Of a stretch of DNA of 64,000 bases, positions 14,321 to 29,318 are shown piece by piece. The DNA lies in the NCBI RefSeq assembly GCF_000150955.2, contig NC_011675.1, positions 148,827 to 212,826 on the forward strand. Direction: 5' to 3'. Position 1 is the first letter of the stretch, and the number at the start of each line of letters is the position of its first letter. The stretch comes from Phaeodactylum tricornutum CCAP 1055/1. Lineage: Eukaryota > Bacillariophyta > Bacillariophyceae > Surirellales > Neidiaceae. A program made the position numbers and the translations under genes. Below the pieces are notes generated by a model. It was not told the origin of the DNA, ran no database searches, and saw only the letters and a program-made list of their open reading frames with translations.

Positions 14321-16723
<2,403 letters not shown>

Positions 16724-17210
16724 AGAATGCGGTTCTACGTCGTTTACATATCTGTAGTAGGTGAACATTATCAGTAGAGCAAATGTAGACTACAAGGACA
16801 AAATCCTGTAATGTAAGTCATCGGAAACGTTGAATTGAAAGCTCGTTGGCCTTGCTCGTAGGCACGGAGGGCATGAGAGGACACGCATAGTTTATCTGAC
16901 TATTCAATTTTAAAAAAGATGTAATACTCTAAAGGCGAAGGACCGTCGCCGTTTACCAAAATTACATCCAAGGGACTCGATTCGTCGCGGACGGTATATG
17001 TCGACTGTGCATACTGCAGCTACAACAGACCAAGCTGTTTTTGTCATTTTTACAAATCACCCAAGTTTTTAGTAAAGTTAAAAGTAGGTCGTAGGCACCC
17101 AAAAGGACGGTCTCCCTTTTGGTGGGCGGAGCACATCCCCACGTCACTTCCGTTGTCGCCAGAAACGTAGCACAAAAACAAAAAATATTTTTGAATTCGA
17201 AATTTTGGAC
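16724..17210. other. Intergenic region, convergent 3' ends
   Basis: Spacer between the converging KRR1 and carbonic anhydrase genes. AT-rich around 16780-17060. No gene or repeat recognised. Confidence 0.5.
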
Positions 17211-18225
17211 CTACATGGGGACCTTGGCGTTTTCCAGATCGTACAAATCGTAAATGCCGTTGATCTCGGCCATGTACTTGTCAAAGTCAACCTTGAGTTT
17301 CTTGACCTCACCCGTTTTAGGGTCAAAGACGACGGGATGCACCTGAGGAATGGCCACACCGCCATCCTTGTAGCTTTCAATGCGCTTAGCCTGGATGACT
17401 CCGGTCTTGAAGAGGTTGACGCATTGTTCAATGACGTTCAAATCGACGAGGCGACGGTGACGTTCTTCGGGGTCCTTAATGGCGTCGAGCTCCTTGGCGT
17501 GCAAACGGTAGACATCCCGGATATTACGGAGCCAGATGGAGAGCGGCGGAGCGTGGTCGACATTGGCGACCGAAGCTCGGACACCGCCGCATTCGTAGTG
17601 TCCACACAGGATTACGTTGGGGATTTTAAGTACGTTGATACCGAATTGAATAGCCGACATGACGGCCAAGTCGTTGTTGACGACCATGTTGGCGATGTTG
17701 CGGACCGTCAACATGGTACCGGCTTCCGTGCCCATGATCATGTTTGGGGGAGCGCGAGCATCGACGCAGCCTAGAGTAGACGAAAGACAACGCAACAACA
17801 AGAAGCAATGCAAGAAGGAGGTAGCGTGTCAGTGCCATACTACGATGTAAATCTGACGAGAAGGGACCAACCTCCCACATCATGAATATCAATAACAGAG
17901 AGAATAGATTCGATTGCCCCTCATCATTGTCCTGGACCTCGTCGTTTCTGAAACAAAACCTACCAATGTACAAGTACTTGGGGGAGTGAACGGTTCCGAG
18001 GGTGTCGAAGTACGCGGGGTCACCGGCGAGCTTGTCCGCAATGAACTTATTGTTGCCGTCAAAGAGTTCCGACACATCCAGATCGTAGCCGCCTTTGGCC
18101 GCCGGCTTGGGAGAGCTGTCTTTGGGAAGGGAAGTTTTTCCGAAACGAAAGAGTTTCTTAACGTTCAAGGCATCTACCGTAGAAAGAGCCAAAAGCGTGA
18201 CAGTAGCAGCAGTAGCAAACTTCAT
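17211..18225 (-). CDS. Beta-type carbonic anhydrase, plastid/pyrenoid type
   Basis: Interconverts CO2 and bicarbonate. Two exons: 18225-17964 and 17770-17211; the intron 17963-17771 (193 nt) starts GTAGGT and ends TCTAG. Splicing rebuilds the zinc motif: ATT G joined to GC TGC gives IGCVDAR. The 273-aa product has the beta-CA ligands Cys89, His145 and Cys148 (GHYECGG) and the Asp91/Arg93 dyad. The N-terminus is a signal peptide (MKFATAATVTLLALSTVDA) followed by a basic segment, as in the known P. tricornutum chloroplast beta-CAs PtCA1 and PtCA2, which localise to the pyrenoid. Which of the two this is was not settled. It is divergent from the SLC4 transporter, over a region with six TGACGT sites. 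Confidence 0.95.
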
Positions 18226-19121
18226 GGTAGAACAGTAAACTAGGTTGGTGTACCACACACTGTGTAAAAGAAACGGAACGAGATTTTGTGTTGTCGACGT
18301 CCTGTCTGCGAGCTGTCTACACGGGAATTTAGCAGTTAGCAATTACGGCTTGCTGCTGATGTGTCGTGCACTTTTGAATGCGCCTGCGAGTCTACTCGCT
18401 ACGCGCGCAGGTGGCGTATTCACACCTTGGTAAAACCTCCCCCGGCATGATGCAACCGAAACGCGTTTTTTGGGTTGGGTCGCTTCGCCTTCAACCACGA
18501 AGTGGTTCGGCGAAGGATCGCGCGGACGAAGCAGGCCTACTCTACATTCAAAAACTCGTGCGTGCGTTTGTTTTCTTTCGCAGTTTCGACCAACGACATC
18601 CACGACGGCTGACGTCAGAACGATGACGTAGTCGAGTCAACCCCGGGTAGAGCTATATTTTTACAAGCGGAACACAATATGAATCGCGACGTCACATACT
18701 GAAATGTCATTAACAGATTCAGTATAATGCGAAACACTGATACCTTTATTTTGGTAAGGCTGTGTCAGAACTGACGAATTCTGTATCAACGCCACGCATG
18801 ATTGCTCGGAAAGTATGCGTTCTGTTTGAGCTATGTCGACGTCATGGCGGCCGTAAACACTGATGTGGTAAAGCAGCTCATTTCCTCTGTGTGACGTAGC
18901 GATCCATCAAGCTTCAATACTAGAATCAATTTCTGCTCTGGCATCTACTGCCGAAGCCCATGCCCTGTACAAAGTCTACGAATACTGACGTATTGAGTTT
19001 TCACAGTACCAGATTTCGGGAAAACCCTTCCGACGAAACCACATATCCCTCACAATTAGTTGACTGTCGGGAAACTGCGAACCCAGATCCTATCAAACAT
19101 TGGTCCTTTCCGTCCAGCAAA
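18226..19121. promoter_or_regulatory. Shared divergent promoter region with six TGACGT half-sites
   Basis: This 896-nt region separates the start codons of the beta-CA and the SLC4 transporter. TGACGT or its complement occurs at 18610-18617 (the full palindrome TGACGTCA), 18624-18629, 18689-18694, 18839-18844, 18892-18897 and 18986-18991. TGACGT-type CO2/cAMP-responsive elements, bound by a bZIP factor, are published regulators of P. tricornutum chloroplast CA genes. That these copies work, and which gene each serves, is inference. A TATA-like AT stretch (ctatatttttac) lies at 18651-18662. Confidence 0.6.
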
Positions 19122-21141
19122 ATGCCACCCAAGCACGAAAGTCAAGAAGACCTCAAGATGTCAACATCTAAACAAGATGAAGACGAAGTCCGCACCATTG
19201 ACTTTCTCGACCACGACGATGGTAACCAAGGCAACGGCTGGGGCCGTGGTATCGTGAAAGACTTCCGCAAGACTGTTGGAACGCACTGGGTCAACGAAAT
19301 GACAAACTTTAACCAGAAGTCGATTGCTGTTTCCTTTTTCATCTTCTTTGCGGCTGTAGCTCCCGCGATTACTTTCGGTGCCGTCTATTCCAAGGTGCGT
19401 TTTCCGACTTGTGTGTGTGTATGGTATTGGTCATCGCCACGTGTTCGTCTCTCGATAGTATCGTGTGTTCTTCGGGGTATCACCGAGTCACCGTCACCTT
19501 GACGCTTCCTCACATCCTCTTGTCTTATCCGCATTTCCATAGACCACCAATGACGCGATTGGTGCCGTCGAGATGCTCATTGCGACTGCTTGGTGCGGAA
19601 TTGTCTACGCACTTATTGGAGGACAGCCCATCATGATCAACGGTGGAACCGGTCCCGTTCTTGCCTTTAGTGCCGTGCTTTTTGATATTGCGGACAACAT
19701 GGACGTCAACTTTTTGACTTTGAATGCCTGGACTGGACTCTGGGTTGCAGGATTCTTGATCATTGCGGCTTTCGTTGATTTGAACCGTCTAATGAAGCAT
19801 GCTACGCGCTTCACCGACGAAATCTTTGCCCTGTTAATTGCGTCCATCTTCGTGATTGATGCACTTGGTAGTCCCTTTTCTGATGTAGGTATTTACTGGT
19901 ACTTCACCCGCAGCCATGATTCGCATGACGAATTCGAAGACCAGGAAGACTACTCATACATGGCCACAGCGTTTCTCAGCGCCGTTCTCTGTCTGGGAAC
20001 AACCTGGTTGGCCTTCTTCCTGAGGGATATTAAGTTTTCGCCCTACTTTCCCAACGATTCTTGGCGCACTCTCATCTCCGATTTTGCCGTGGTTGCCTCC
20101 ATTCTGATCTGGACTTTGATCGCCAACGGACTCTTCGACAATGTTGAAGTGGAGCGCCTCAATGTCCCGGATAGCATCACGCCGACTCAAATCTGCTGCA
20201 CCGCCGATTGCATGACGTCGTTCCCCGATGACTGTCCCGACATTACACCGTACGGACGCCGTTCCTGGATTGTGGACCTTGGTGCCGTCAACGGAAAGTC
20301 CTGGATCCCTTTTTTTGCCGCCATTCCGGCTCTTTTGGCATTTATCCTTGTTTTCTTGGATGATGGTATCACCTGGCATTTGATCAATCACCCGAGCAAT
20401 AAGCTTACTCACGGAGACGCTTACAATTGGGACACGGTTGTTATTGCTGCTATGATCGCCGTCAACTCTATGCTTGGTCTTCCCTGGTTGGTCGCCGCCA
20501 CTGTCCGATCCCTCACCCACGTCAATGCTCTCGCCGAACGTAGTGAGAACGGCAAAATTATCAGTGTGCAAGAAACACGCTTGACGCATTTGGGAATTCA
20601 CTTGCTTGTGCTTGCTGCTCTCTTTGCACTGGATGTGCTCAAGCTCATCCCTGTGCCAGTCTTGTACGGAGTCTTCTTATATATGGGAGTGGCCAGTTTG
20701 GCATCCAATCAATTCTTCCAGCGCTTCCTCATGTTTTTTATGCAGCCCTCCAAGTACCCCCACGAGCCACACACTAAGTACATGGCTCCTAAGCGCATGC
20801 ACTTGTTCACAGGGATCCAGCTTGGACTTTTCGTAATTTTGACAGTATTTCGATCTATTTCTGTCATTGCCATTGCTTTTCCGATTGTCATTAAGGCTTG
20901 TATTCCAGTCCGGATGTACATCTTGCCTCGCTACTTCACCTCCGAAGAACTTCTCATGATCGATACCGATGACAGCATCGTCAACGAATATCTCGAGTAC
21001 AAGGAGTCCAAAGGCGAGAAAGTACCCGTCCGTCATTGTGGCGAACAAGAGCCCGAGGAAGTTCCGATGCTTCAAGTGACTCAGCATCCTATCCGAATCG
21101 ACGATGGCAGCGATGAAGAAGGGTCCGTCGAACAGGTTTAA
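19122..21141 (+). CDS. SLC4: SLC4-family bicarbonate transporter
   Basis: Two exons: 19122-19394 and 19543-21141; the intron 19395-19542 (148 nt) starts GTGCGT and ends CCATAG. Splicing restores FGAVYSK-TTNDAIGAVEML, the conserved SLC4 span. The product of about 623 aa has a short hydrophilic N-terminus (about 60 aa) and then the multi-span HCO3- transporter domain: APAITFGAVY, GGQPIMINGGTGPVLAF, DDGITWHLINHP and PWLVAATVRSLTHVNAL are all typical. The large cytosolic N-domain of animal SLC4 proteins is absent, as in other diatom SLC4s. P. tricornutum SLC4 proteins are known to import bicarbonate at the plasma membrane under low CO2. ATG 19122 is preferred over 18960 because the earlier part has no family similarity and contains a TGACGT element. 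Confidence 0.93.
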
Positions 21142-21555
21142 TGTTTTTCTGTTATGTAACGGAATGGAATTTCTACTAGCTTTCAAAAGAGAAGGCTTAA
21201 AGTTTCAGACCGTAGTATTGATTGCCACGTGTCCACTAGAGCCATCTAAACGCCTTCCTTCGCTGCGAAAAAATGAATTTGAGCATCCTTGTAGCCAGTA
21301 ACCATTAAAGGCGCTTGACCACCAGTTGGGACATCTCAACATGACAGTGGTAGTCTCGGTTTGTTGAAGCCGATGCTTACTAGCTGTAAAGAGACCCTCA
21401 ATGCTCAAAAGGGATGCTCTTTGGTATCAACAGATATGTTTTCGAATGTGCTTATTAATAGACAACATAAACGAAAGTACTTTCAAGATACAATTTGTAT
21501 ACAATGTCTGCAGTTGAAAAAGGTGGACTCACGTCCCATCGTGGCCCAAATCGAT
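21142..21555. other. Intergenic region
   Basis: Spacer of about 400 nt between the SLC4 gene and a small minus-strand gene. No feature seen. Confidence 0.4.
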
Positions 21556-25111: not shown

Positions 25112-26140
25112 ATGAAGTTGGTTCCTGCGTGGACCATGATGACACGCAATGCTATATTCTCTGCTCGAAACCCTTCACATTTCTTGGAGGTCACGGCGCT
25201 CTTCTGTATACTACTAGCGAGCGGAAGGGGCGCCCGAACCAACACAGCTTTTGTCAATCCACAGAATCCGCGCAACGGATTGACTTTCACTTCATCGTTC
25301 TCCGGTACCAGCCAACATGCCGGCAGAGTGACGGTTAATGAGGAGAATTTGGCTTTACCCACTGGTTCCGGACTATACCGGGAATTTTCCCGACACGCTT
25401 GGGAAAAATTACAATCATCGGGGCTTTTTGTGCAGGAACCGGTGGAGGAGGAATGTGCGTCGAACACGGCACCTGCCCGTGGCCTTCCGTCCGGCAGTGT
25501 CGTGCAAATGGAGGTCCAGGCATTGCGCGGTTCCCTCCCCCAAGTCGCCTACGCTAGGTACGCCTTACTGGAAACTTTGAAAGCCGGAAATGACGCGAAT
25601 GTCACGCATCACGACGGAATCCAAGTCTTGAATTTGGTGATCTTTCCCTCAACCACCACGGACCTACCAGTGTTCGGCGCCGATTTCGTTTCTTTACCGG
25701 GGGGAAAGCATTTGTTGCTACTGGATGCCCAGCCAATGACAGAAGATGTACACTACGAACACTATTGGAGTGATTGGTACCAGTCGAACCACATTTCCGA
25801 GATTTTCCCCTGGGGTGGGGATATGCCAGAGGCGGTCCAACGCTACGTGTCGAGCAAGGCACTGTGGACACGTATGGCATCCAGCGAAGACAACGCCGGA
25901 GAGAAAAGAAATCCTGTAATCATTATTCAAACTGATTTGATGGCAGCTTTCCAAGCCCACTTGGAGGTGTATATACAGCTGCTGCACGATTACACTGACT
26001 TGGAGTCGAAGGACAACTGGAGTGCGGAATACCTCGACTATCGACTTACCAATGATCCCGCTCGACCTATGCTGAAGTCTTTGTACGGCGAGGAATGGAC
26101 CGAGCGCGTTCTGAAAACCGTGCTATTCCCATCGCCATAG
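25112..26140 (+). CDS. Ferredoxin-dependent bilin reductase, HY2/PebB-like
   Basis: Reduces a biliverdin-type linear tetrapyrrole with electrons from ferredoxin. The 342-aa protein starts with a hydrophobic leader and an NTAFVNP junction, fitting plastid import. Family blocks follow: LNLVIFPS, PVFGADFVSLPGGKHLLLLDAQPM (with the conserved Asp), FPWGGDMPEAVQRYVSSKALWTR and the C-terminal NDPARPMLKSLYGEEWTER. The last two match HY2/PebB-type members more than PcyA. Diatoms have no phycobilisomes, so the likely product is a chromophore for phytochrome or another bilin role (inference). Start at 25112, with MMTRN at 25136 as an alternative. Confidence 0.88.
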   Translation: MKLVPAWTMMTRNAIFSARNPSHFLEVTALFCILLASGRGARTNTAFVNPQNPRNGLTFTSSFSGTSQHAGRVTVNEENLALPTGSGLYREFSRHAWEKLQSSGLFVQEPVEEECASNTAPARGLPSGSVVQMEVQALRGSLPQVAYARYALLETLKAGNDANVTHHDGIQVLNLVIFPSTTTDLPVFGADFVSLPGGKHLLLLDAQPMTEDVHYEHYWSDWYQSNHISEIFPWGGDMPEAVQRYVSSKALWTRMASSEDNAGEKRNPVIIIQTDLMAAFQAHLEVYIQLLHDYTDLESKDNWSAEYLDYRLTNDPARPMLKSLYGEEWTERVLKTVLFPSP

Positions 26141-26249: not shown

Positions 26250-29200
26250 TTACGTTCCCCTACACCCCGGACTGCTGAGCCAGAAACCGGCCGTCTTGCT
26301 CGAAAGAGAATAGACTGTCGTTCCATCCTTACCACACAATGATCGCCAGCGTCCGTGCGTTTCTTGAATGACGCCTACGGCTTCCATCGCGGTGCGCGGC
26401 GTTTCAGACGCCAAATTGTTTTCCGCTTTGCCCTCGCTCGTCTTGTACCGCTTCAACCAATCCCGGAGCTTGTCCAAGTGACCCGGCTTGACACGCTCCA
26501 AATCTTCCAAGGAATGGATTTGGTTGGCGTCTTTGTCGTCCACGGCAATGCACAGAATCTTGTGGTCCGTTTCGCCTTCGTCAATGAGCTCAAACGATCC
26601 CAACACCCGACACGGCGTTAGTCCACCCATTTGCAAGGGCGACGACCCCAATTCGATAACGTCGAGCGGATCGTTGTCCCCACCGTACCCTTGCGCAGAT
26701 TTTAGGTTGGGATCTTCCCATGTTTGTGGAATGAGACCATAGTTGAAAAAGGGCGTACCGTAGCTGTAGTGACGCGGCGAACCGTCGCTGTTGGTGTCCT
26801 GAGCAATGGGACTGTTGGACAGCATCTTTTGAATCTCCATTTTGGCCGTGCAATACATGGGAATTTCCGTCACCATGTTGACTACGGTTTCGGATTGCCC
26901 CGATGGACTCAGGGGAATGTCGTGCCAGAAGGATTCGTATTCTGTACTAGTCAGGTGGAAGGATCGGGAACCAAACTGGCCTTGATACGTGGTGCGCGGT
27001 GCCGTGGGGGGATCTACGCGAGGTTGACTCCACGGCGTCCAGCGTTGCACATCATCAATATTCCGGTAGTAGTCGACCACTTGATTCCAACCGTCCGGTA
27101 CCATGAATCCGCTGGGGACGCAGTTGGCTTCGACCAGATCCGTCGGAATATTGGTGGGACTGCAGGGGGTGGCCCCGTTCCGGGCCAACAGTCGCATTTT
27201 ACTGCCCGAAATACTGATAAAGTCCGCCAGCCGCGCTTCGTCCGGAATCTTCATAATATTGTCGGTGGTGTCGTACATGACTTTGACAAAGCTCAGCATC
27301 TTCATATCTCCGAGGCCCGGCGAGTTCTGCAGAACGTAACGTCCGTGGTTACCGTCGTAGAGGTCATCGTCCGGGTGCGCCACCGCGTTGGGCGATCCTT
27401 TCATTCCGGCGGGATCGCGGCCGACCACAAAGTACGAGGCTCCCGCGGAGCGCCGTGACTTGGCGTGGAACTGGACTTCGGTGGGTCCGGCGTAGACCAT
27501 GGGAGCGGGCCAAATAGCCATGACGGTGGATTCCGGATCGAGGCCACCGGGATGGGTGGTGCCCGCTTGCAGGACTTGTTCGTGCTGTTTGACGCGCACA
27601 TCGAGCGGCACGTCGTCGGCCTTGGTCCAACCGCCCAGGGGACTCAACCACAGGACGGGTTTCTGGTACCCCTGACGACGCAGGTCTTCACCGGCGGAAC
27701 GCATCAGGTACGCGTGACCCGCGTGGGTCGGGTTACGCGTTTGGAAGGCGTACACCGTGTCGGCCCCTTTGCTCTGGAACTCTTGCACGAGCTCCGTCGC
27801 TGTTTTGCGCCACTGGTCGAGGCCGTCATTGTAGCGGATGCGATCCAGCAGTTCGATTTCTCCGCCAATCAAGTAGTCGCCGCCCCGATAAATGTGTTGA
27901 ATGTAGGGATGATCCGGATCCACGACACCGTACATACGCGTCACGATTTCTTCCTTGCGGTTGGCGTAGACTTCGGGATCGCGTAGAATGGCCACGGTGT
28001 GTCCCATTTGTGTCACCAAAGCGACGGCGTTGTGGGACGAGGCGTCAATGAGGTCCTTGGTAAAAGATGTACAGGAGAGGGTGATGGGAATGGGCATGGA
28101 GACGCGTTGGGGGGCCGGATGGGCGGAAAAGTGATCAAAGTTCGTGCGGGTTTCCAGTCGCAGGGCGTTGCCCGTGAGGTTGAAGGGATCCGTGAGGATC
28201 GAATTAAAGTGCAGGGTTTCCAACAGTGTGCCTTCGCGCATGAAACCTCGGAGCGGTGAGGCCCAGCCTTCCCCAATGGTTTGCAACCAGTTGAGATCAA
28301 TGTCGTTGATCAAGACCTTGGGGAGGGTCGCCGCCTCGGCGCGACGGGCTTCTTTGGATTCGTCGGGAACGTGCAAGTCCACCAAGACGTCCCCGTCGGG
28401 GTTGGGCAGACCGGGCGGACTAAGTTTGGGCGCCCCGACCAGAATTCCGTCTCGTTCGAGTCGTCGAAAGAGAATCTGCACCGACTGTTCAATGGTGAGT
28501 TCGTGCGTTTTGAGGGTAATTTCTGGTTGCAAGGGTTCATCATAGGGGTCGTCGATGCAGGTAAAGTGTTTGAGTTCTCCGGACTCGACACGAGCGTACT
28601 GTCCCTTGGGATCGCGTTTTTTGAGTTCATCCACGGGCACGTCGAGGAATACTTCGTAAAAGGGAATGCCTTGGTCGACGTGACGTTTGCGTACGGCGTC
28701 GCGATCCTTGCGGTAGGGCGAGATGAGTCCGACGAGCGTGACGACACCGGCGTCGGCAAAGAGTGTGGCGAGTTCCCCGGTCCGTCGGACCGACTCGGCG
28801 CGATCGGCTTCGGAGAATCCCAAATCACGGTTGAGTCCGGTGCGGAGGTTATCCCCGTCCAGACGGTAGACGTGTTTCCCGTAACTCTTGACGAGTTGAT
28901 CTTCGAGTGCGGTGGCAATGGTGGTTTTGCCGGCACCGGAACATCCCGTCATCCAGAGCGTGGCGCCCTTTTGTCCGACGGCGGCGAACCGCGTGGCCGG
29001 CGGGAGATGACAGGCATCTTGCGAGGCCCCGGCTTCGGCGGCGGCGCACTCGATAATGTGCGGCGGTGAGTGCGCGAGCGCCTGTTCCCGAAGCCGCGCC
29101 AGGACGGCGTTGTCGTCCATAGGACAGTCGCAGGCGGCGTCCGTCGTGGGTGGTGATGGCGGAAAGGGCACGTCGGCGGCGACCGGTACGACGTGGGGAG

Positions 29201-29318
29201 CCGTGGTGACGGGACGGACCGGGGTGCCGCCGGTGACGGTGTAGGCGTCCTGATCGCCGGTGCGGGACAGGACAAAGACAATAGCGAGGAGGACGCAAAA
29301 GCCGACACACAGGGGCAT
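26250..29318 (-). CDS. Trifunctional APS kinase / ATP sulfurylase / inorganic pyrophosphatase
   Basis: Single-exon 1022-aa fusion for sulfate activation. Residues 1-18 are a hydrophobic leader, followed by a Pro-rich linker. The APS kinase domain (about 117-292) has the Walker A GCSGAGKT at 125-132 and DGDNLR at 154-159. The ATP sulfurylase domain (about 310-757) has QTRNP (526-530), HAGH (532-535) and GRDPAG (633-638). The family I pyrophosphatase domain (about 785-1022) carries DNDPLDV at 881-887. Together they make APS from sulfate and ATP, remove pyrophosphate to pull the reaction, and can phosphorylate APS to PAPS. This triple fusion is known from diatoms. All three active-site motifs look intact. 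The start lies just downstream of a GTT/GATA simple-repeat leader. Confidence 0.95.
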   Translation of the reverse strand: MPLCVGFCVLLAIVFVLSRTGDQDAYTVTGGTPVRPVTTAPHVVPVAADVPFPPSPPTTDAACDCPMDDNAVLARLREQALAHSPPHIIECAAAEAGASQDACHLPPATRFAAVGQKGATLWMTGCSGAGKTTIATALEDQLVKSYGKHVYRLDGDNLRTGLNRDLGFSEADRAESVRRTGELATLFADAGVVTLVGLISPYRKDRDAVRKRHVDQGIPFYEVFLDVPVDELKKRDPKGQYARVESGELKHFTCIDDPYDEPLQPEITLKTHELTIEQSVQILFRRLERDGILVGAPKLSPPGLPNPDGDVLVDLHVPDESKEARRAEAATLPKVLINDIDLNWLQTIGEGWASPLRGFMREGTLLETLHFNSILTDPFNLTGNALRLETRTNFDHFSAHPAPQRVSMPIPITLSCTSFTKDLIDASSHNAVALVTQMGHTVAILRDPEVYANRKEEIVTRMYGVVDPDHPYIQHIYRGGDYLIGGEIELLDRIRYNDGLDQWRKTATELVQEFQSKGADTVYAFQTRNPTHAGHAYLMRSAGEDLRRQGYQKPVLWLSPLGGWTKADDVPLDVRVKQHEQVLQAGTTHPGGLDPESTVMAIWPAPMVYAGPTEVQFHAKSRRSAGASYFVVGRDPAGMKGSPNAVAHPDDDLYDGNHGRYVLQNSPGLGDMKMLSFVKVMYDTTDNIMKIPDEARLADFISISGSKMRLLARNGATPCSPTNIPTDLVEANCVPSGFMVPDGWNQVVDYYRNIDDVQRWTPWSQPRVDPPTAPRTTYQGQFGSRSFHLTSTEYESFWHDIPLSPSGQSETVVNMVTEIPMYCTAKMEIQKMLSNSPIAQDTNSDGSPRHYSYGTPFFNYGLIPQTWEDPNLKSAQGYGGDNDPLDVIELGSSPLQMGGLTPCRVLGSFELIDEGETDHKILCIAVDDKDANQIHSLEDLERVKPGHLDKLRDWLKRYKTSEGKAENNLASETPRTAMEAVGVIQETHGRWRSLCGKDGTTVYSLSSKTAGFWLSSPGCRGT

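Follow-up and report, generated by a model that had tools for sequence, protein, structure and literature searches.

Diatoms carry out much of the carbon fixation in the ocean. In Phaeodactylum tricornutum two beta-type carbonic anhydrases (CAs), PtCA1 and PtCA2, are described, and CO2-responsive elements have already been published for both promoters, those of PtCA2 responding to CO2, cAMP and light. The PtCA1 promoter (Ohno et al. 2012) has TGACGT and ACGTCA before the gene of a pyrenoidal beta-CA; the published element set comprises TGACGT, ACGTCA and TGACGC (CCRE1-3), and its CO2/cAMP elements are bound by PtbZIP11. The combination of CCRE1 with CCRE2, or of CCRE2 with CCRE3, is said to suffice for ptca1, so that CCRE3 is no requirement, and two CCRE2s are reported to govern the response of ptca2. 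Transcripts of both genes fall at high CO2 (PMC6340190), and the activation of PtCA2 at low CO2 is described as strongly light-dependent; an early paper called the second P. tricornutum beta-CA constitutive, contrary to later reports. The PtCA2 promoter has apparently been studied with regard to the CA only (Tanaka et al. 2016), the SLC4 gene on its opposite side going unmentioned in the passages on that work.

Two further systems are close in kind. Upstream of PtBST1 (PMC11142338), a low-CO2-induced anion-transport gene, there are likewise six TGACGT/C motifs on both strands; unlike in the locus described here, they lie within about 300 bp before one gene, and the passages of that account describe no divergent pair. 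In Thalassiosira pseudonana, carbon-concentrating and photorespiration genes of a CO2-responsive cluster share a cAMP-type upstream element (Hennon et al. 2015), but these are separate genes of another diatom, grouped by expression, rather than a shared divergent promoter. A search of titles, openings of abstracts and text passages recovered no description of the CA/SLC4 arrangement presented below; this search missed the main promoter papers, and we do not claim that the arrangement is absent from print.

A beta-carbonic anhydrase gene and an SLC4 gene head to head

The window, by which we mean the whole 64,000-nucleotide stretch C7:148827-212826 of the P. tricornutum assembly (27,450,724 bases in 88 contigs), contains a beta-CA gene and an SLC4-type bicarbonate transporter gene in divergent orientation. 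Their start codons, at 18225 on the minus strand and 19122 on the plus strand, are separated by 896 nt (18226-19121), which is within the limit of less than 1 kb between head-to-head genes used for bidirectional promoters. An earlier note on this DNA had proposed the pair and the distance; its coordinates are right, and both genes contain the expected Pfam domains. The beta-CA gene (17211-18225, minus strand) consists of exon 1 (17964-18225), a GT-AG intron of 193 nt (17771-17963) and exon 2 (17211-17770), giving a spliced frame of 273 aa. Exon 2 matches Pro_CA (PF00484) with an E-value of 1.4e-38 and 133 bits against a cut-off of 25.7, and the spliced protein contains CVDAR and HYEC, which fit the CxDxR and HxxC motifs of beta-carbonic anhydrases. 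The SLC4 gene (19122-21141, plus strand; exon 1 19122-19394, exon 2 19543-21141) has a spliced frame of 623 aa. Its exon 2 matches HCO3_cotransp (PF00955; 1.6e-120, 403.9 bits against a cut-off of 27), and the match to the NCBIfam anion exchange protein family TIGR00834 has an E-value of 8.7e-106 yet stays under the cut-off (354.9 versus 599.45 bits).

A profile search of the genome with Pro_CA returned two matches, one per gene, corresponding to two beta-CA genes. The protein of the other gene, on contig C1 (locus L027), is 70% identical to the window CA. Within 45 bp (L027 3235-3279), at 103-147 nt before its start codon, this gene has TGACGT, ACGTCA and TGACGC. The set published for PtCA1 consists of the same elements, and the genome has two beta-CA genes; the window gene is therefore, by elimination, PtCA2 (Phatr3_J45443). 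By the same elimination, the intergenic region is on its CA side the DNA of the published PtCA2 promoter. The CA part of the observation had thus been known before; the SLC4 side is less explored. PtCA1 differs from the window pair in the position of its elements, in the inclusion of TGACGC and in its neighbour: the nearest divergent frame found matches SNO, so that PtCA1 has no SLC4 gene as its partner.

The SLC4 frame is open 5' of its start codon back to 18924 (18924-19121, plus strand), with an in-frame ATG at 18960. A longer N-terminus starting there, which would make the TGACGT site at 18986 coding, was rejected because an 89%-identical SLC4 paralogue on contig C61 has no such extension. 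On the same comparison we judge the open frame to be probably due to chance, and transcript data could still show otherwise. Rfam gave no match at gathering score within 16700-21500. Elsewhere in the window, a single minus-strand frame (26250-29318) joins APS kinase, ATP sulfurylase and inorganic pyrophosphatase domains, and is adjoined by a frame for a ferredoxin-dependent bilin reductase (25112-26140).

TGACGT places between the two start codons

The 896 nt contain TGACGT or its complement ACGTCA at six places, corresponding to seven strand hits: 18610, 18624, 18689, 18839, 18892 and 18986. All six had been listed in the earlier note, which divided them evenly between the two genes. This division does not hold: with the midpoint at 18673.5, the place at 18689 falls in the SLC4 half, leaving two places in the CA half and four in the SLC4 half. 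The first two form a central block, TGACGTCA-N6-TGACGT (18610-18629), located 385-404 nt before the CA start, in which the palindrome TGACGTCA at 18610 accounts for hits on both strands. This block contains the TGACGT nearest to the CA gene, whose first 384 nt upstream are free of sites. The remaining places are at 18689-18694 and 18839-18844 on the minus strand and at 18892-18897 and 18986-18991 on the plus strand. The last three are promoter-proximal, at 283, 230 and 136 nt upstream of the SLC4 start codon.

Read on the CA strand (18629-18610), the central block presents a CCRE2 followed by a CCRE1 that overlaps a CCRE2. The critical stretch of the PtCA2 promoter, said to have one CCRE1 and two CCRE2s at -367 to -333, fits this block; if so, by arithmetic, the CA transcription start would sit at 18262-18277. 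The region as a whole combines CCRE1 (TGACGT) and CCRE2 (ACGTCA) upstream of the genes, with the six places occurring on both strands. CCRE3 (TGACGC), which is part of the PtCA1 set, is absent from 18226-19121.

Two of the six places, 18689 and 18892, are enclosed in the arms of an inverted repeat. The arms, of 18 bp each (18679-18696, plus strand; 18890-18907, minus strand), match at 16 of 18 positions, and two of the three genome-wide occurrences of the repeat core ATCGCNACGTCACA are in this intergenic region. Allowing for up to three mismatches, the 18-bp repeat has 69 matches in the whole genome against 40 for a reversed control, and the only mismatch-free copies are the two found here. 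The repeat therefore seems to be local, and we rejected it as a genome-wide element. By joining one site on the central side with one SLC4-proximal site, it argues for a promoter serving both genes.

The number of sites exceeds the expectation under every background used. TGACGT was counted over the whole genome, located along the initial 372 kb of contig C1, and compared with a 122-kb set made up of the rest of the window and seven other loci of the genome. Genome-wide, TGACGT has 7019 and 7093 strand hits which, after subtraction of 569 double-counted palindromes, amount to 13543 places in 27.45 Mb, a frequency matched by the reversed word (6992 and 7215 strand hits). At this rate 0.44 places are expected in 896 nt (P = 6.9e-6 for six or more), in agreement with the note's estimate of less than one, and 0.21 non-overlapping stretches of this size with at least six places are expected across the whole genome. 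The approximate rate outside open reading frames (13 hits in 19.4 kb) gives P = 3.8e-5. Among the 687 hexamer classes present in the region, TGACGT ranks first against the 122-kb set, with 7 occurrences versus 0.58 expected (P = 2.7e-6). Both the excess over 0.44 and the first rank support the bidirectional promoter.

Similar density elsewhere had been named in the note as the check to make. On the 372-kb stretch of C1 (190 places) the counts per 896 nt fit a Poisson distribution closely, with a maximum of 4, so general clustering of TGACGT does not account for the intergenic cluster. The 12 other ATG-initiated frames of at least 300 aa in the window have zero or one place each in the upstream 1 kb, 7 in total, and the whole 64 kb is not enriched (42 hits versus 39.65 ± 5.82 in shuffles).

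TGACGT before other SLC4 genes and in composite blocks

The 26 HCO3_cotransp matches in the genome fall, by our own grouping, into nine SLC4 genes. The nearest group has five members: the window gene, its C61 paralogue and three genes on contig C60 that are 45-56% identical to it, depending on the aligned piece; the four distant genes are 25-32% identical. With 1-kb upstream stretches counted from inferred start codons for the paralogues, there are 6 TGACGT places before the window gene, 2 before the C61 gene and 1, 2 and 6 before the C60 genes, amounting to 17 places versus 2.5 expected (P = 1.3e-9). The excess persists when the window gene is left out (11 places in 4 kb versus 2.0 expected, P = 7.3e-6), and in the pooled upstream stretches of these four paralogues TGACGT ranks first of 1592 hexamer classes (12 versus 2.19, P = 3.5e-6). 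Before the four distant genes the counts are 0, 0, 1 and 1, or 2 places in 4 kb versus 2.0 expected.

Independence among the near paralogues is incomplete: the three on C60 are neighbours, and two of these (C60b and C60c) have places in common at about -8 and -270. A further caution is that one of the four paralogues has a single place. When the upstream stretches were compared by BLAST, those of the C60 genes aligned with one another twice, over 72 nt (72%) and over 29 nt (86%), and no paralogue stretch aligned with the window region. Comparison of the C61 locus (L028) with window positions 19182-21069 gave coding DNA 87-93% identical, with no alignment of the flanks or the intron; in exon 2 of this pair dS is 0.37 and dN 0.03. 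The protein of SLC4 exon 2, searched against viral contigs, had no relative there. The third C60 gene (C60c, L033 7745-9074) is itself arranged head to head with an ABC1-kinase gene, and the interval between the two inferred starts contains seven TGACGT places.

The excess before the near paralogues, together with its lack before the distant ones, lends new, indirect support to the SLC4 side of the CO2 link. In published work, SLC4-5 (Phatr3_J54405) falls at high CO2 (PMC6340190), and three of seven P. tricornutum SLC4 genes are reported as low-CO2 induced; we neither equate the former with the window SLC4 gene nor match the latter to it.

Two composite patterns were searched genome-wide. TGACGTN{0,30}ACGTCAN{0,30}TGACG has 8 matches versus 6 for the reversed control, and TGACGTCAN{0,30}TGACGT has 25 strand hits at 20 places versus 11; the patterns are thus not, or only about twofold, above their controls. 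Together they mark 26 distinct places, of which 23 were examined, including the PtCA1 and window blocks that had suggested the patterns. Three of the other 21 precede recognisable carbon genes. The first (L041, C18:687869 region) is an iota-CA-like gene, whose best PDB match is 3h51 (CaMKII-association domain, 1.6e-31), followed by 7c5x (iota-CA, 7e-12), and whose protein contains HHHSS twice; a CCRE1-CCRE2-like block (1501-1545) lies between it and a zinc-type dehydrogenase gene on the other side, with sites 500-514 nt upstream of the former but also 288-302 nt before the latter. The second (L039) encodes a pyruvate phosphate dikinase (PDB, 3e-32), with sites 242-375 nt upstream. The third (L065, C23:165004 region) is a serine-pyruvate aminotransferase-like gene (PDB 3ke3, 1.2e-41; no Pfam match at 0.01), where six TGACGT places (1336-2035), 53-699 nt before the inferred first exon, reach the density of the window region.

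At a further place (L064, C21:216870 region, about 1501-2340), genes for a ferredoxin-NADP reductase (FNR) and a bZIP factor (3.4e-12) are transcribed away from each other. Three TGACGT places fall between their inferred starts, and the bZIP frame itself contains another two; the reductase has a PDB match at 2.8e-40, but falls under the NCBIfam cut-off and has no Pfam match. The remaining 17 places have no such link among the frames scanned, which were part of those at these loci and none of those at L036: some lie inside open reading frames, and others before DUF1995, DUF6816, redoxin/methyltransferase, cation-efflux, glycosyltransferase and unnamed genes. An LCIB-type CA (L049, C1:2402619 region) was considered as a target and rejected: four TGACGT places (1501-2108) are 3' of the gene, upstream of an unnamed frame, and a fifth is inside it. 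Bestrophins gave four Pfam matches in three genes. Having no matched control, the list of genes at composite places is a lead and not a result.

A putative bidirectional CO2/cAMP-responsive promoter

We consider it probable, at roughly 0.65, that the 896 nt are a bidirectional diatom CO2/cAMP-responsive promoter read by bZIP factors, with the central block for PtCA2 and the proximal sites, perhaps together with the central block, for SLC4. The gene identities, their arrangement, the enrichment and the TGACGT excess before related SLC4 genes are shown here, and the CO2 response of PtCA2 with the role of its elements is published. A CO2 response of the window SLC4 gene, its dependence on these sites and the action of the region as a single block are our inference. 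CREB/ATF-like bZIP factors, of which PtbZIP11 is the one published for PtCA1, would bind the TGACGT places. High CO2 would raise cAMP and lower transcription, and low CO2 in the light would release it. The block at 18610-18629 would drive PtCA2, and the sites at 18839, 18892 and 18986, perhaps with the central block, would give SLC4 the same control; bicarbonate import would then increase in step with the release of CO2 at the pyrenoid. The absence of CCRE3 from the region, the early report of a constitutive CA and the closeness of the composite patterns to their controls count against this promoter.

The same 896 nt might instead hold two independent CO2-responsive promoters back to back, the central block acting on PtCA2 and the three proximal sites on SLC4, with none shared. 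The grouping of the sites into a central and an SLC4-proximal set is consistent with this arrangement, as is the occurrence of sites before related SLC4 genes that adjoin no CA. A CO2 response needs no CA/SLC4 pairing, because PtCA1 has its elements with no SLC4 partner and no beta-CA lies near the C61 SLC4 paralogue. Yet the inverted repeat ties together one site from each group, and the adjacency of a CA and an SLC4 gene has a chance of about 1 in 1000 by a rough, post hoc arithmetic (2 beta-CA genes, 9 SLC4 genes and about 12,000 genes in all). We regard separate promoters as unlikely.

TGACGT is also an aureochrome (blue-light) site. The places could accordingly serve mainly for light, being bound by aureochromes (bZIP-LOV blue-light receptors) or other bZIP factors, with the SLC4 link to CO2 incidental. 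P. tricornutum is reported to have four aureochromes, and the lower level of SLC4 transcripts in the dark, like the light dependence of PtCA2, would fit such a role. In PtCA1, however, the same elements are published as CO2/cAMP elements bound by PtbZIP11. The earlier note had linked TGACGT to the published CO2/cAMP-responsive sites of diatom CA promoters, and this link holds for PtCA1 and PtCA2. A role mainly in light seems improbable, and since light and CO2 inputs may both act on the same sites, it is partly compatible with a CO2/cAMP-responsive promoter. That the cluster arose by chance and has no function on the SLC4 side is very improbable: about 0.2 such stretches are expected genome-wide and there is at least one more cluster of six sites (L065), but the word had been fixed beforehand by publications, still ranks first when the motif is not chosen, and is over-represented upstream of the four nearest SLC4 paralogues.

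A wider reading goes beyond the bidirectional promoter, and we hold it tentatively, as possible but doubtful. Composite TGACGT blocks might mark a CO2 regulon readable from DNA alone, including the beta-CAs, one SLC4 clade, the iota-CA, pyruvate phosphate dikinase, the serine-pyruvate aminotransferase-like gene (photorespiration) and the FNR/bZIP pair. In such a regulon a single shared switch would be wired to both PtCA2 and SLC4, and the bZIP gene would perhaps be under its own kind of control.

A physically shared promoter, if true, would couple bicarbonate import and CO2 release at one DNA element, and one switch may then set both the CA and the SLC4 transporter to the CO2 supply. The result upstream of the SLC4 genes would extend the same prediction to four more transporter genes.
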